Shown here: positions 964-5,451 of the stretch, piece after piece | How positions within the stretch are numbered: position 1 is the first letter of the stretch | How the letters are laid out: each line of letters starts with the position of its first letter | Translations under genes and position numbers: made by a program | Virus record (IMG/VR): IMGVR_UViG_3300017613_004222 | Coordinates: 1-23,644 of that record | Strand: one strand, 5' to 3' | Origin: a virus | DNA length: 23,644 nt | The notes under the pieces: model-generated | Databases searched by the model: none | Told to the model about the DNA's origin: nothing | What the model saw: the letters and a program-made list of their open reading frames with translations, nothing else

Positions 964-2274
964 GTGTCAAAAATAGGAAAAAGACCGGAAATCGAGGAAA
1001 TTTCTTTATCAGAGATTAAGCCATTTCCTGATAACCCTAGAGACATTGATCAGAAGGCCTTGGAAGGGTTAAGGAAAAGCTTGGAAAGGTTTGGCTACAT
1101 CGATTTGTTAGTTGTTAATAAACGTAATATGGTGCTTGTTTCTGGCCATCAAAGGTTGAAGGTACTGCTTGAGGCTGGTGTTGAAAGTGTTTTGGCTGTG
1201 ATTGTTGATCTTGATGATTTGGCGCATAAATCTATGTGTTTGACTTTAAATAATCAGCAAATTATGGGGCATTTTACTGCAGCTGTTATACCTTTGCTTG
1301 AGCAATTGCGCAATGAAATGCCAGATGAATATTTGGATCTTCGTTTGCAGGAGTTAAGAGAAGAATGTAACGAGTTTGAAGTTGAAAATGATGGAACAGG
1401 AAAAACATTGCCTGATGATATCCCGGAACAACCAAAGGAACCAATAACAAAGCCGGGTGATTTATGGATATTGGGAGAGCATCGATTGCTTTGCGGATCC
1501 AGCACTGATCCAGAAGATGTCGCACGTTTGATGGATGGAAACAAATCACAGCTTATGGCAACAGATCCACCATATTGTATAAATTATACTGGAGCGGATC
1601 GGCCCACAGGGGGAAAAGATTGGTCAGGAGTTTATAAAGAAATTGATATTCCAGATGCGGAAAAATTTTGGACTGATTTTTTAGGTTTGGGTTTATCGGT
1701 CATTGATTCACATTCGGCTATCTATTTTTGGTATGCATCAAGTAAACATGGAGTTGTTGAGAAAGTTTTTAATAAATTAAATTTATTGCTGCATCAAAAT
1801 ATTATTTGGGTTAAGCCATGTATGAATTTAAGCTTTTCAATTTATCCCTGGAGGCATGAGCCTTGTTTTTTTGGATGGAAAAAAGGAAATAAACCATTTT
1901 TCAGAGTTAAACATAAAAGTGTTGGAACTGTTTGGTCTTTTGGATTTTTAAGGTCTGGGGATCTTACAGATCCAACGTATTATTCTGATGTATGGGAGTT
2001 AGATTATGAAGGGAAGAACAGGGCGGCACTGGGATTGCATCCTACGGTAAAGCCTACAGAGTGTTTTGCCATTCCGATGCGTGTTCACACAAAGCCTGGA
2101 GATATTTGTTATGAACCATTTAGCGGATCAGGATCGCAGATTATTGCAGGGGAGCGATTGAAGCGAAGAATTTTTGCAATGGAAGTCGAACCAGTTTTTG
2201 TTGATGTCGCAGTTAAAAGGTGGGAAGAATTTTCAGGGAAAAAAGCAGAAAGAATTATTAAAGTTAAAAAATAA
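964..2274 (+). CDS. ParB-like domain / DNA methyltransferase fusion
   Basis: The 436-residue protein has two parts. Residues about 10-100 form a ParB/sulfiredoxin-like domain with the SGHQR motif (60-64), preceded by IKPFPDNPRDID. After a linker, residues about 160-430 form an amino-methyltransferase of the DNA N4-cytosine/N6-adenine class. The catalytic motif DPPY is at 201-204, a VHTKPGDICYEPFSGSGSQ region carries the SAM-binding FSGSG (386-390), and HPTVKP is at 359-364. Catalytic motif before the SAM motif is the beta-class order. The enzyme should methylate phage DNA using SAM, probably against host restriction, without a visible partner nuclease. The GTG start is chosen for the GAAAGGAG site upstream and because the ParB domain starts at once. 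Such fusions commonly sit next to terminase genes in phages. Domain calls are confident; target sequence is unknown. Confidence 0.92.
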   Translation: MSKIGKRPEIEEISLSEIKPFPDNPRDIDQKALEGLRKSLERFGYIDLLVVNKRNMVLVSGHQRLKVLLEAGVESVLAVIVDLDDLAHKSMCLTLNNQQIMGHFTAAVIPLLEQLRNEMPDEYLDLRLQELREECNEFEVENDGTGKTLPDDIPEQPKEPITKPGDLWILGEHRLLCGSSTDPEDVARLMDGNKSQLMATDPPYCINYTGADRPTGGKDWSGVYKEIDIPDAEKFWTDFLGLGLSVIDSHSAIYFWYASSKHGVVEKVFNKLNLLLHQNIIWVKPCMNLSFSIYPWRHEPCFFGWKKGNKPFFRVKHKSVGTVWSFGFLRSGDLTDPTYYSDVWELDYEGKNRAALGLHPTVKPTECFAIPMRVHTKPGDICYEPFSGSGSQIIAGERLKRRIFAMEVEPVFVDVAVKRWEEFSGKKAERIIKVKK

Positions 2275-2280
2275 AGGCCG

Positions 2281-2340
2281 GGGTGGTGCTGTAACACCAC
2301 CCAACGCTACACATGGTTATGAGCATGTGCAACTCGACCA
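2281..2340 (+). ncRNA. Two tandem hairpins upstream of terminase; candidate structured RNA or packaging site
   Basis: Six bases after the methyltransferase stop lies a perfect 8-bp stem, GGGTGGTG (2281-2288) with CACCACCC (2295-2302), enclosing CTGTAA. Seven bases later is a perfect 6-bp stem, CACATG (2310-2315) with CATGTG (2324-2329), enclosing GTTATGAG. The downstream CTCGAC (2333-2338) can pair with the second loop (GAG with CTC, GT with AC), an H-type pseudoknot geometry. No T-run follows the first stem, so it is not an ordinary terminator. It could be a conserved RNA structure of the terminase transcript, or DNA hairpins recognised during packaging. The stems are plain in the sequence; the role is open. 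Confidence 0.45.
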
Positions 2341-2374
2341 TTTTGGAATATTAAATATTATTTTAAGGTAAATA

Positions 2375-2506
2375 ATGAATGTGTCAATAATGCAACTGTT
2401 TGATGCCATATGGAAAAAACAAATAAAAGAACGAACGTTGTTGAAATGGCTAAAAAGAAACGTCATATATCACTTTTGGAAAAAATGCAGAAAGGCAAGG
2501 CTTTGA
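2375..2506 (+). other. 43-codon frame overlapping the small terminase start
   Basis: An ATG at 2375, with AAGG 8-9 bases upstream, opens a 43-residue frame (MNVSIMQLFDAIWKKQIKER...) that runs out of frame across the first 32 codons of the small terminase and ends at 2506. The product is basic and tryptophan-containing with no family I recognise. It has a better ribosome binding site than the terminase start itself, so it might serve to load ribosomes, or be a chance frame in A-rich DNA. Confidence 0.25.
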
Positions 2507-3057
2507 CAAAAGCCGAAATTAGAGAGCTTTCTGAATTTGAGAAGGGGGCCAAGAAGCCAAACGTTGTTAATACTAAAAAAGAGGTTGCTGATTCGTATAA
2601 TGTGGATCCTCGGACAATAACAAACTGGGTTCAAAGCGGAATGCCTGTCCGAAGAGATGGGCGTTATGATTTATTAGAGATTAAAAATTGGAAGCTAACG
2701 CGCGAACAGCGTAATGCGTTTAAACGTAGAGAGAAGAAAAAAAAGAATAGAGTCGAAAATGAAGAACCAAAAGCGCTGGAAGATGAATCTAAGATTGATT
2801 GGACTTGGAAAAAAGAAGAATATGACGCTAAATTAAAGCAATTAAAATATGAAGAGCAGGAAGGGAAGCTGATCTTGAGGGAAGATGCAATTAATGCATT
2901 AAAAGAGAGTATCCGTACCATAAAAAAGGAGTTTCTATCCTTACCCAAACAGATATCCCCGCAGTTGGTAGGTTTAGAAATTAGTGATATAGACCAAATT
3001 TTATCTGCAAGGATTAAGGATATTATTGAAGGTTTTTCAAGGGGAAAGTTCAAATGA
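2410..3057 (+). CDS. terS: Terminase small subunit, Nu1-like
   Basis: The 215-residue product matches the layout of Nu1-type small terminases. There is a winged helix-turn-helix at about residues 52-95 (NTKKEVADSYNVDPRTITNWV, then GMPVRRDGRYDLLEI), a lysine-rich linker, and a helical C-terminal half (about 125-205) for oligomer formation and binding the large subunit. It should bind the phage packaging site and recruit the large terminase. The ATG at 2410 has no evident ribosome binding site; an in-frame ATG at 2446 (MAKKKRHIS) lacks one too, and the conserved domain starts later, so the exact start is uncertain. The stop overlaps the next start by 4 bases (ATGA at 3054-3057), indicating coupled translation with the large subunit. 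Confidence 0.88.
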   Translation: MEKTNKRTNVVEMAKKKRHISLLEKMQKGKALTKAEIRELSEFEKGAKKPNVVNTKKEVADSYNVDPRTITNWVQSGMPVRRDGRYDLLEIKNWKLTREQRNAFKRREKKKKNRVENEEPKALEDESKIDWTWKKEEYDAKLKQLKYEEQEGKLILREDAINALKESIRTIKKEFLSLPKQISPQLVGLEISDIDQILSARIKDIIEGFSRGKFK

Positions 3058-4922
3058 CAGAAGTTGTTTTGAAATTATTGAAAGAATCTCGCATAGCCTG
3101 GAATCTTCCAAAGTCTATTACTGTATCTCAATGGGCGGATGCCAATCGAGTGCTTCCTGGATCATCTGCAGAGCCTGGCAGATGGCGAACATCGCGTACG
3201 CCTTATCTTAAAGGTCCAATGGATGCCTTCAACGATTCACATATACGTGAAATGACATTAATGATGTCTACGCAAGTCGGAAAAACTGAGACAATGCTTA
3301 ATATGCTTGGATATGTTGCGCAGGAGGATCCTGGACCGACTGCATGGCTTGGAGCAAAGGAGCAGGATGTGAAAGATTTCTGTGTTGAGAGGATCCAGCC
3401 AATTTTTAACTTATCATCCGAGTTGCTAACTAAGCTATCAAAAAATAAGGATGAAATAAATAAAAAGGGTATTGCCTTGGATAATATGCGGATGCATGTT
3501 GTTTGGGCAGGAAGCCCCTCAGGGCTTGCGTCAAGGGCAATCAAATATGTCTTTGCTGATGAAGTTGATAAATATCCACCGTATTCCGGACGAGAGTCAG
3601 ATCCTCTTGAGTTAATAACAGAGCGAACCCGAACTTTTTGGAATCATAAAAAAATTAAAGGTTCCACGCCAACAACCAAGCGGGGTTATATTTATAAAGA
3701 ATATGAAAAAAGTGATAAGCGAAAATATTATATGCCTTGTCCACATTGTGGAGAATATCAGATATTTGTCTGGGGATGCGTAAAATTTCCAAACGACGAA
3801 AGAAATCCTGATGTTATTAAAATGAATAGGCTAGCTTATTATGAGTGTCCTTATTGTGGAGAGAAAATAACTGACAGCATGAAATTTTCAATGTTGGAGA
3901 AAGGGATTTGGGTTCAGGAAGGTGGCGAAATTGACAAAAAAGGCAAGGTGAGTGGAGTTGGGAAAAAATCAACTCATGCCGGATTCTGGATAAATGCTAT
4001 ATATTCTCCATGGCTTACTTTTTCAGATATTGCAGCTAAGTTTTTGAGTGTAAAAAATGAGCCTTCAAAATTAATGAATTTTGTTAACTCATGGTTAGCT
4101 GAAGTGTGGGAGGAAAAGGCAAAGAAGACAGATGTTGAATTTTTAAAAAGAAGAATTATTGATTATCCTGAAGGGTTAGTTCCTGATGCAGTCAAGGTGT
4201 TGAGTTGCGGTGTGGATGTGCAGAAAGGTTATATGCTTCTTACAGTCAGAGGATGGGGCGTGGGATCGGCATCTTGGTTAATTCGTAAGGCAAAAGTTGA
4301 GTCGTGGTCAGAGCTTGCTGTTAATCTTTTTGATACGAAATATAAAAAATCCGACGGGCAATTAATGAGCATTAGGCTTTCTTTAATTGATACGGGATAT
4401 CGAACTAATGAGGTCTACGAATTTTGCCGTAGGTATCCGCAGAGAACTCGACCAATAAAGGGAAAAGATAATTTAGGAGGAATCCCTTTTCATCCAAAAC
4501 GTTTGGATAAGTTTTCAGATAGCCGTAGCATGCCAGGGGGTTTGGTATTGTGGACGATTGATGTAAATTATTTTAAAGATAAACTTCATCGGTTTATTCA
4601 TTCAACAATGGATGATGCCTCACAGTGGTATATTTATAAAAATATCACAAATGATTATTTGATACAGATGTGCGCTGAGGATAAAGTGATCATCCGAAAT
4701 AAAAAGACAGGGACCTCAACTGAGGTCTGGCAACCAAAAACAGGAAGCATCGCCAATCATTATTGGGATTGTGAGGTTTATAACGTTGCTGCAGCAGAAA
4801 TGTTAAGGGTTTCACTTTTAAAAGATTCTAATAATCAGCAGAGAGTTTATGGGGGAAACAATAAAGAGGGAAATGCAGAAGAAAAATCTTGGATAGGTGA
4901 TCATAAAGACTGGTTAAAATAA
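3054..4922 (+). CDS. terL: Terminase large subunit, GpA family
   Basis: This 622-residue packaging motor has the lambda GpA layout. The N-terminal ATPase has a Walker A-like segment STQVGKTE (72-79) and a Walker B with its catalytic glutamate, YVFADE (165-170). A treble of family features follows: GSTPTTKRGYIYKEYEKSD (near 203), then two CxxC pairs, C229/C232 and C265/C268, that should bind zinc as in GpA homologues. The C-terminal nuclease starts at about 380 with LSCGVDVQ (D388) and continues through SLIDTGYRT (D446). It cuts concatemeric DNA and drives it into the prohead with ATP. Length is normal for the family. It overlaps the small terminase gene by 4 bases. The call is very secure. 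Confidence 0.97.
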   Translation: MTEVVLKLLKESRIAWNLPKSITVSQWADANRVLPGSSAEPGRWRTSRTPYLKGPMDAFNDSHIREMTLMMSTQVGKTETMLNMLGYVAQEDPGPTAWLGAKEQDVKDFCVERIQPIFNLSSELLTKLSKNKDEINKKGIALDNMRMHVVWAGSPSGLASRAIKYVFADEVDKYPPYSGRESDPLELITERTRTFWNHKKIKGSTPTTKRGYIYKEYEKSDKRKYYMPCPHCGEYQIFVWGCVKFPNDERNPDVIKMNRLAYYECPYCGEKITDSMKFSMLEKGIWVQEGGEIDKKGKVSGVGKKSTHAGFWINAIYSPWLTFSDIAAKFLSVKNEPSKLMNFVNSWLAEVWEEKAKKTDVEFLKRRIIDYPEGLVPDAVKVLSCGVDVQKGYMLLTVRGWGVGSASWLIRKAKVESWSELAVNLFDTKYKKSDGQLMSIRLSLIDTGYRTNEVYEFCRRYPQRTRPIKGKDNLGGIPFHPKRLDKFSDSRSMPGGLVLWTIDVNYFKDKLHRFIHSTMDDASQWYIYKNITNDYLIQMCAEDKVIIRNKKTGTSTEVWQPKTGSIANHYWDCEVYNVAAAEMLRVSLLKDSNNQQRVYGGNNKEGNAEEKSWIGDHKDWLK

Positions 4923-5241: not shown

Positions 5242-5373
5242 AAAAAGGCTAAAAATTAAGAAAAAACAAGTAGTTTTTACCAATCTGTAGTATTAACCCT
5301 ATTGACCAAAACAAAATATATGAGAAAATAAAATATAGAATATGATTAGGGTAGCTCCCTGATTTTAAGTAAT
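5242..5373. other. Non-coding A+T-rich gap
   Basis: I see no gene on either strand here. The stretch holds a TTGACC at 5302-5307 without a convincing -10 box at normal spacing, and ACCCTA (5296-5301) facing TAGGGT (5347-5352), a weak 6-bp inverted repeat 45 bases apart. Its main content is the lead-in to the terminator that follows. Confidence 0.5.
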
Positions 5374-5432
5374 CCAAACAAAAAATTTAAAGACAATCTT
5401 GTGCACAAGCAGGATTGTCTTTTTTTGTTTGG
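5374..5432. terminator. Strong intrinsic terminator, likely bidirectional
   Basis: The core stem is a perfect 10-bp repeat, AAAGACAATC (5389-5398) with GATTGTCTTT (5413-5422), followed on the plus strand by a T-run (5420-5426). The base is extended by CCAAACAAAAAA (5374-5385) facing TTTTTTGTTTGG (5421-5432), so the minus strand also has a T-run after the stem. The loop itself contains the 12-bp palindrome CTTGTGCACAAG (5398-5409). This is a textbook Rho-independent signal. It ends only 20-26 bases before the gpW-like start, leaving no room for a promoter between, so readthrough, antitermination or use as an RNA-processing hairpin must supply the downstream genes. Confidence 0.85.
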
Positions 5433-5451
5433 TGTGATCTTCGAGGAGAAT

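Follow-up and report, generated by a model that had tools for sequence, protein, structure and literature searches.

Two perfect hairpins stand in a short gap directly in front of the terminase genes of a virus genome, and they raise the question of what they belong to: a DNA site, the terminase transcript or a gene of their own. The window analysed here, a linear IMG/VR virus record of 23,644 bases taken at its full length, carries a ParB-N/DNA methyltransferase (MTase) fusion gene (964–2274, plus strand) upstream of terS (2410–3057, plus strand), which encodes a lambda-type small terminase subunit (phrog_57, E 3.4e-28; its start is backed by the alignment of relatives), and of terL (3054–4922, plus strand), which encodes a GpA-type large terminase subunit with GpA_ATPase and GpA_nuclease. 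The initial annotation had described two perfect stems, 7 nt apart, between the methyltransferase gene and terS, and both stems and place were confirmed: the 135-nt gap from the MTase stop (2274) to terS (2410) holds them at 2281–2288/2295–2302 (8 bp, loop of 6) and 2310–2315/2324–2329 (6 bp, loop of 8), in a stretch (2275–2340) with 56% G+C versus 39% in the window. No T-run follows the hairpins on the plus strand, as had been remarked, and no terminator was found there.

Two uses had been suggested for the element, a DNA packaging site recognised by the Nu1-like protein and a structured part of the packaging transcript. On the basis of comparative sequence analysis, we read the hairpin DNA as a small-RNA gene on the minus strand, belonging to what appears to be a new phage small-RNA family tied to terS; its identity as a small-RNA gene is very probable.

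The fold and its strand

Over 76 nt the minus strand of the window reached a z-score of −5.17 against shuffled sequences (−4.61 in a second shuffle set) versus −2.57 for the plus strand; over 136 nt the plus strand modestly beat its shuffles (z −1.94). The closest TerS relative found is encoded at locus L137, where a similar interval precedes terS; there the small-RNA strand gave −6.53 versus −3.72 for its complement, and the minus strands of both loci fold as a three-way junction. The small-RNA strand outfolds the complement in 9 of the 10 members of the family, the exception being L233 (−3.15 versus −3.74).

Folding and covariation both indicate that the junction is closed by helix P1, in which GGUCG (2335–2339, minus strand) pairs with CGGCC (2276–2280, minus strand). 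All five of its pairs are standard on the minus strand, one of them G-U; the plus-strand helix has a C-A mismatch. The pseudoknot formerly proposed between a downstream CTCGAC and the second loop gives way to this pairing, the better partner of CGACC (2335–2339) being GGCCG (2276–2280). P2 (2306–2333, minus strand; GUUGCACAUG/CAUGUGUAGC with an 8-nt loop) includes the second hairpin of the initial annotation within a 10-bp stem (2306–2315/2324–2333), and P3 (2281–2302, minus strand), the first hairpin, is the most strongly covarying helix of the family. Because several of the pairs are G-U and would become A-C on the plus strand, the fold points to a minus-strand RNA and not to DNA or a plus-strand RNA. 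Of the suggestion that a structured RNA of the packaging transcript lies here, the structured RNA survives, by virtue of covariation, and the transcript does not, since the element is on the opposite strand with a promoter of its own.

Right after P1 there is a T-rich tract, UUUAUUUUUUA (2265–2275, minus strand), a candidate terminator that is absent from the other members; a terminator scan reported none at this tract in the window, and no 3′ terminator common to the ten members was found. The promoter match described below and the T-rich tract together predict a transcript of about 75–90 nt (2265–2353, minus strand), with the 5′ end set 7 nt after the −10 box and the 3′ end assumed at the tract. 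Such an RNA would begin about 55 nt before the terS start codon and so would not cover it. The minus-strand promoter, the tract running from 2275 to 2265 and the longer second stem had all been overlooked; a hairpin pair read on one strand can conceal an RNA gene on the other.

Ten members, their covariation and their promoters

The family comprises the window, L137, L220, L222, L224, L225, L227, L228, L232, and L233. A model made from the window alone (R1) scored L137 at 13.8 bits, the sole full-length match outside the window at E < 0.05 in 30 kb. Model R2 combined the window and L137 with a partial match to the P3 palindrome of the window itself; in 384 Omnitrophota genomes it detected L220 (47.4 bits, E 1e-10), and from 40 records or genomes it returned only the window, L137 and a chance match (L219). 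Sequence patterns taken from earlier members brought in L222, by a DNA pattern from L137 and L220, as well as L224 and L225, which were found together with L226 by a pattern containing the promoter. Model R3, made from six sequences, found L227 and L228 in the 384 Omnitrophota genomes, L232 among 293 genomes of one class and L233 among 44 genomes of another phylum; it gave nothing new in 128 genomes of one order and no match at E ≤ 1 in 40 further records. At E ≤ 0.05 R3 matched five distinct genome loci (three in the 384, one in the 293 and one in the 44 genomes, the searched sets overlapping), and the genome searches with R3 or R2 that made no use of terS led to five loci, all of them adjoining terS.

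Several candidates were set aside. L219 (E 0.118) and L221 (E 0.064), the latter being the only other R2 match at E ≤ 1 in the 384 genomes, are coding sequence; L039 and L040, from a DNA pattern scan of the interval, both read as Gly/Pro-rich coding sequence; L226 matched the pattern and not the model; and L223, L217, and L218 are second copies of L137 or the window. A blastn search of the interval against phages and plasmids gave short chance matches only, and the same search with the L225 copy gave none. The Rfam comparison proposed in the initial annotation yielded no match at gathering scores in the window and the seven member loci other than L232 and L233; relaxing the cut-off to E ≤ 10 added chance-level matches alone in the window and nothing in L137. 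ARAGORN reported no tRNA or tmRNA gene in the eight member loci other than L232 and L233, and the small RNA was not found in the literature, as covered by open PMC papers.

Covariation among relatives, the other check that had been proposed, was obtained with ten sequences. They were aligned under guidance of the model (alignment A12), which started from the window fold and favours that fold; such alignments lean towards the model and were used because MAFFT alignments of the window and L137 misplaced the helices. In A12 97.9% of 233 cells form standard pairs, and both sides have changed in 11 of the 25 pairs (33 cells); none of 500 shuffles reached any of the five covariation measures, and sliding the partner by 1–3 columns as a control left 36–45% paired. 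Both-side changes affect seven of nine pairs in P3, three of seven in P2 and one of seven in P1, which is mostly invariant, and none in the two-pair base of P2. The earlier six- and eight-sequence sets gave a similar covariation picture, and for both of them RNAalifold again predicted the three-way junction. In the family fold P1 has 5–7 bp, P2 ends in a conserved CACAUG/CAUGUG and P3 is variable; the strand joining P1 and P2 (J1/2) is A-rich, reading CAUAAA in six of the ten members, and the other two junctions are almost free of nucleotides.

A sigma-70-like promoter lies at 2387–2360 on the minus strand of the window, TTGACA-16-TAAAAT, with the −35 box TTGACA at 2382–2387 (minus strand) and the −10 box TAAAAT at 2360–2365 (minus strand); by consensus match it agrees at 11 of 12 positions. 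Its counterpart in L137 is TTGACG-17-TAAAAT, and TTGAC[AGT]-16/17-TA[AG]AAT stands at the matching place in all eight members scanned, including L224 and L225, for which the promoter belonged to the search pattern itself. Among the later finds, inspection by eye gave TTGACA-17-TAAAAT in L232, and L233 shows only a weak TTGAAA-17-TAATAT. An inverted repeat connects the promoter spacer with P1 or J1/2 in five members, its length being 8 nt (L222, L232), 7 nt (L225, L220) or 6 nt (L224); in L222 and L232 the spacer contains GACCGCAC and the RNA start GTGCGGTC. In the first eight members the summed length of this repeat exceeded that in spacer shuffles (p < 1/5000, tested after the pattern had been noticed); among the later members it is present in L232 (8 nt, p 0.0002) and absent from L233. 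Possible roles for the repeat are those of an operator, a TerS site or a switch within the leader of terS.

Besides the fold, strand and promoter match, the computations show the synteny. All ten members are opposite in strand to terS, with the core 58–98 nt from the extrapolated terS start, and nothing intervenes between the small RNA and terS in any carrier. On the methyltransferase side there are alterations in L137 (a cut methyltransferase gene and an additional frame of 117 aa), L220 (an additional frame of 90 aa), L224, L227, L232, and L228; additional sequence on that side amounts to 3.4 kb in L224, 423 nt in L229 and 620 nt in L234, and the carrier L228/L230 has no methyltransferase nearby. 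In L224 and L228 the small-RNA transcript would not run into the MTase gene. Assuming that the terS mRNA extends upstream, the small RNA overlaps the terS leader and not the start. Since the RNA stays by terS despite these changes on the other side, an action on terS or on the packaging step of TerS may be inferred.

Other features of these loci may be recorded here. Tandem-looking repeats, TGGCTCGCTA and TTGGTTTTCTA, lie right behind the small RNA of L224 (4840–5100), within the 3.4-kb insert before the methyltransferase. Short out-of-frame reading frames overlap the terS start in the window (2375–2506) and in L137 (2957–3103); both have a purine-rich stretch before the ATG and stand in the same frame relation to terS, and the window frame, starting at 2375, overlies the small-RNA promoter. 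The window TerS also has a lysine/arginine-rich stretch at about residues 95–123 that is absent from 11 aligned relatives.

Distribution, age and an apparent satellite

The distribution was examined in 88 distinct loci in which terS is immediately preceded by a complete methyltransferase gene, identical junctions being counted once and near copies retained; 16 duplicate or chance loci and 5 loci with the terS start uncovered were left out. The gap between the two genes is at most 30 nt in 76 of them and longer in 12. Eight of these 12 carry the small RNA and four do not (L158, L161, L216, and L173, the last of which equals L045); L137 and L228/L230 carry it outside the full-methyltransferase set. 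In the 384 Omnitrophota genomes 24 terS loci occur in 21 genomes, 3 of the loci carrying the small RNA, and genome G183 has one terS with it and one without. Related terS loci come mostly from Omnitrophota MAGs, with single ones labelled Nitrospirae, Ruminococcaceae, and Planctomycetota; binning errors are possible throughout.

A 59-row tree of TerS, TerL, and methyltransferase started from 119 loci (terS start covered, TerL match over 350 residues); removal of near copies left 57, to which L230 (TerS only) and L231 were added. It covers the members known before L232 and L233. Branch support (SH-aLRT) comes from a quick search, and several carriers are long-branched. The eight carriers included are placed on deep branches, and none falls within a well-supported clade of 46 rows; the carrier label requires 4 changes versus 7.7 in shuffles, and none of 500 shuffles was as low. 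The tree pattern, whose root and some deep branches are weakly placed, suggests an old gene with later losses and not a recent insertion. It fits a small-RNA gene that is old in one lineage of phages with lambda-type terminases, known largely from Omnitrophota MAGs, and that has undergone a minimum of two or three losses. A mobile origin of the window interval, as a small insertion bounded by terminal repeats (2254–2269/2361–2376), was also considered and dropped, since L137 and others show an old shared gene. With no Rfam match at gathering scores, the small RNA keeps its place on the terS side across deeply diverged phages and in an apparent satellite.

This apparent satellite, G268:C56 (L230, L236, L237), from an Omnitrophota MAG, contains terS and the small RNA in an element with two recombinases. 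One is a tyrosine recombinase; the gene for the other, a serine recombinase, overlaps a frame with Mg-chelatase/ComM-type domains at the 3′ end of that frame, which stops inside its Mg_chelatase domain. The element also encodes a replication-initiator-like protein and a relative of the window's 84-aa zinc-ribbon-like protein, and one stretch, a scaffold-like fragment, has its match confined to the C-terminal portion of the head protease gene of the window. With window proteins as queries (E ≤ 0.01), no terL, portal or capsid match was obtained in the 20,978-base contig. Having an integrase, a replication gene and terS, and with terL and a structural operon not found, it looks, by gene content, like a PICI-type phage satellite; a decayed prophage is possible. 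PICI-type satellites divert packaging with a TerS of their own. That the small RNA and terS were kept jointly in this element is the best hint that the two work together. Repression of terS by SaPIs has been described (PMC7567579). Four further loci, L252 (G197:C59), L257, L258, and L261, have terS-family matches and no terL or methyltransferase matches in the available sequence, and are possible further satellites or remnants.

Other elements were seen around the terminase genes of relatives. L045 (1598–1686; also L173) has a different insert at the MTase-terS junction (z −4.15), with three copies of ATGTCGAGAAC, one of them inverted to give a perfect 11-bp hairpin. In L127/L247 and L261, which have no methyltransferase match, a G+C-rich block, ACGGGTCCTTCCAG.GGGGGT...CGCGGGTCGG, precedes terS and might be a cos region. 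Downstream of terL, 12 relatives (L153, L057, L128, L149, L144, L162, L126, L154, L172, L146, L049, and L124) have a plus-strand promoter-like pair and two hairpins, one of which resembles a strong terminator and is flanked by CCCAATAA/TTATTGGG, and the window has a similar design at 5290–5435, CCAAACAAAAAA...TTTTTTGTTTGG; a crude count of perfect stems retrieved this element in 1 of 104 loci (L235). It is possibly a second small RNA or a conserved terminator.

Possible function and comparison with known systems

We infer that the gene is transcribed and propose the following role. A promoter 23–50 nt upstream of the terS start and directed away from terS would make an RNA of about 75–100 nt, which would fold into the three-way junction and, as a folded regulatory RNA, set the amount or activity of TerS. 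It would act in cis on the mRNA to which it is antisense and possibly in trans on a related infecting phage. A simple block of the ribosome site is unlikely because the small RNA falls short of the terS start; cutting or refolding of the terS leader, or protein binding, would be likelier. The statement as a whole, a minus-strand gene for a folded small RNA regulating terS or TerS, is given a probability of roughly 0.6. It combines two kinds of evidence, since trans action does not require a place beside terS, nor plain antisense action a preserved fold, and it has against it that most relatives have no small RNA. Control of TerS by the small RNA, if real, would put the first packaging step under an RNA switch.

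The position in front of terS, which is that of cos in lambda-type phages, could also mean that the element is a DNA packaging site, cos or pac, bound by TerS, whose dyad symmetry produces the hairpins incidentally. Strongly conserved DNA words (GCGGTCGCATAAAGC, shared by L137 and L220), the spacer inverted repeat in L222, L232, L225, L220, and L224 and the location beside terS in all ten carriers, even the apparent satellite without terL, agree with this; however, the covariation includes many G-U pairs valid on one strand only, a promoter is present, and the interval is missing in 76 of 88 relatives with the same gene order, which must therefore package from elsewhere, so that we regard a packaging site, the chief rival to our reading, as unlikely. 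The uniform opposite orientation (10 of 10), the conserved promoter and the constant proximity to terS would be expected of plain cis-antisense or transcription interference, where the promoter directed against the MTase-terS mRNA is what matters and the fold merely protects the RNA. This too is improbable: covariation in all the main helices, together with the conserved J1/2 strand and P2 end, favours a folded RNA, and in L224 and L228 the transcript would miss the MTase gene.

In a reading unrelated to packaging as such, the RNA would counter host defence, serve as a decoy or be the trigger that a defence system senses. There is a precedent in cabRNA from the terS-terL region, which activates CBASS in staphylococci (PMC10686824), but that RNA has 400 nt and originates inside terS and terL, none of the loci examined shows a linked defence gene, and a decoy need not adjoin terS; we hold this to be very unlikely. 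A chance hairpin or a recent small insertion in an intergenic gap, to which the lack of similar DNA in phage or plasmid records and the rarity of gaps above 30 nt (12 of 88 relatives) might have pointed, is refuted by the R3 matches in genomes and the covariation, with ten copies from deeply diverged loci agreeing in fold, strand, promoter and neighbour. Beside the regulatory role that we prefer, the RNA might take part in lambda-type packaging itself, TerS working with, or being loaded by, an RNA made next to its gene; a satellite stealing the TerL and capsid of a helper would then keep terS and the RNA as one unit. We consider such participation quite doubtful.

Among known phage RNAs, lambda OOP and aQ, P22 sar, and P1/P7 c4 are likewise small, have their own promoter and lie opposite a phage control gene; phage antisense RNAs act on control genes, and aQ on late-gene control (PMC12197685). 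They were compared by sequence through Rfam scans only, and differ from the present RNA, which has a covarying three-way junction, has terS as its neighbour and leaves the terS start uncovered. The cabRNA is similarly a structured phage RNA from the terminase region, but it has about 400 nt, lies within terS and terL and is sensed by CdnE03 (PMC10686824), whereas the RNA described here is short and encoded on the opposite strand upstream of terS. Noncoding RNAs are also present in the PLE phage satellites, where they are complementary to gene leaders; host and element are different, and the likeness is by description only (PMC7567579).

No tRNA-like or phi29-like identity is claimed from the bare shape. 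Lambda cos/cosB occupies the same position before the Nu1 gene, directly in front of a lambda-type terS, but conservation here concerns a promoter and an RNA fold that includes G-U pairs. Phi29 pRNA is alike in general features, being a phage-encoded three-way-junction RNA of about 100 nt that is linked to DNA packaging. Phi29 uses another type of ATPase, and pRNA rings form by loop-loop pairing; no complementary loops were seen by eye in the members, the P3 loop of L222 is a plain UUCG, and the Rfam scan gave no match. Should the RNA take part in packaging, it would join phi29 pRNA as a second packaging RNA, in a motor of another type.
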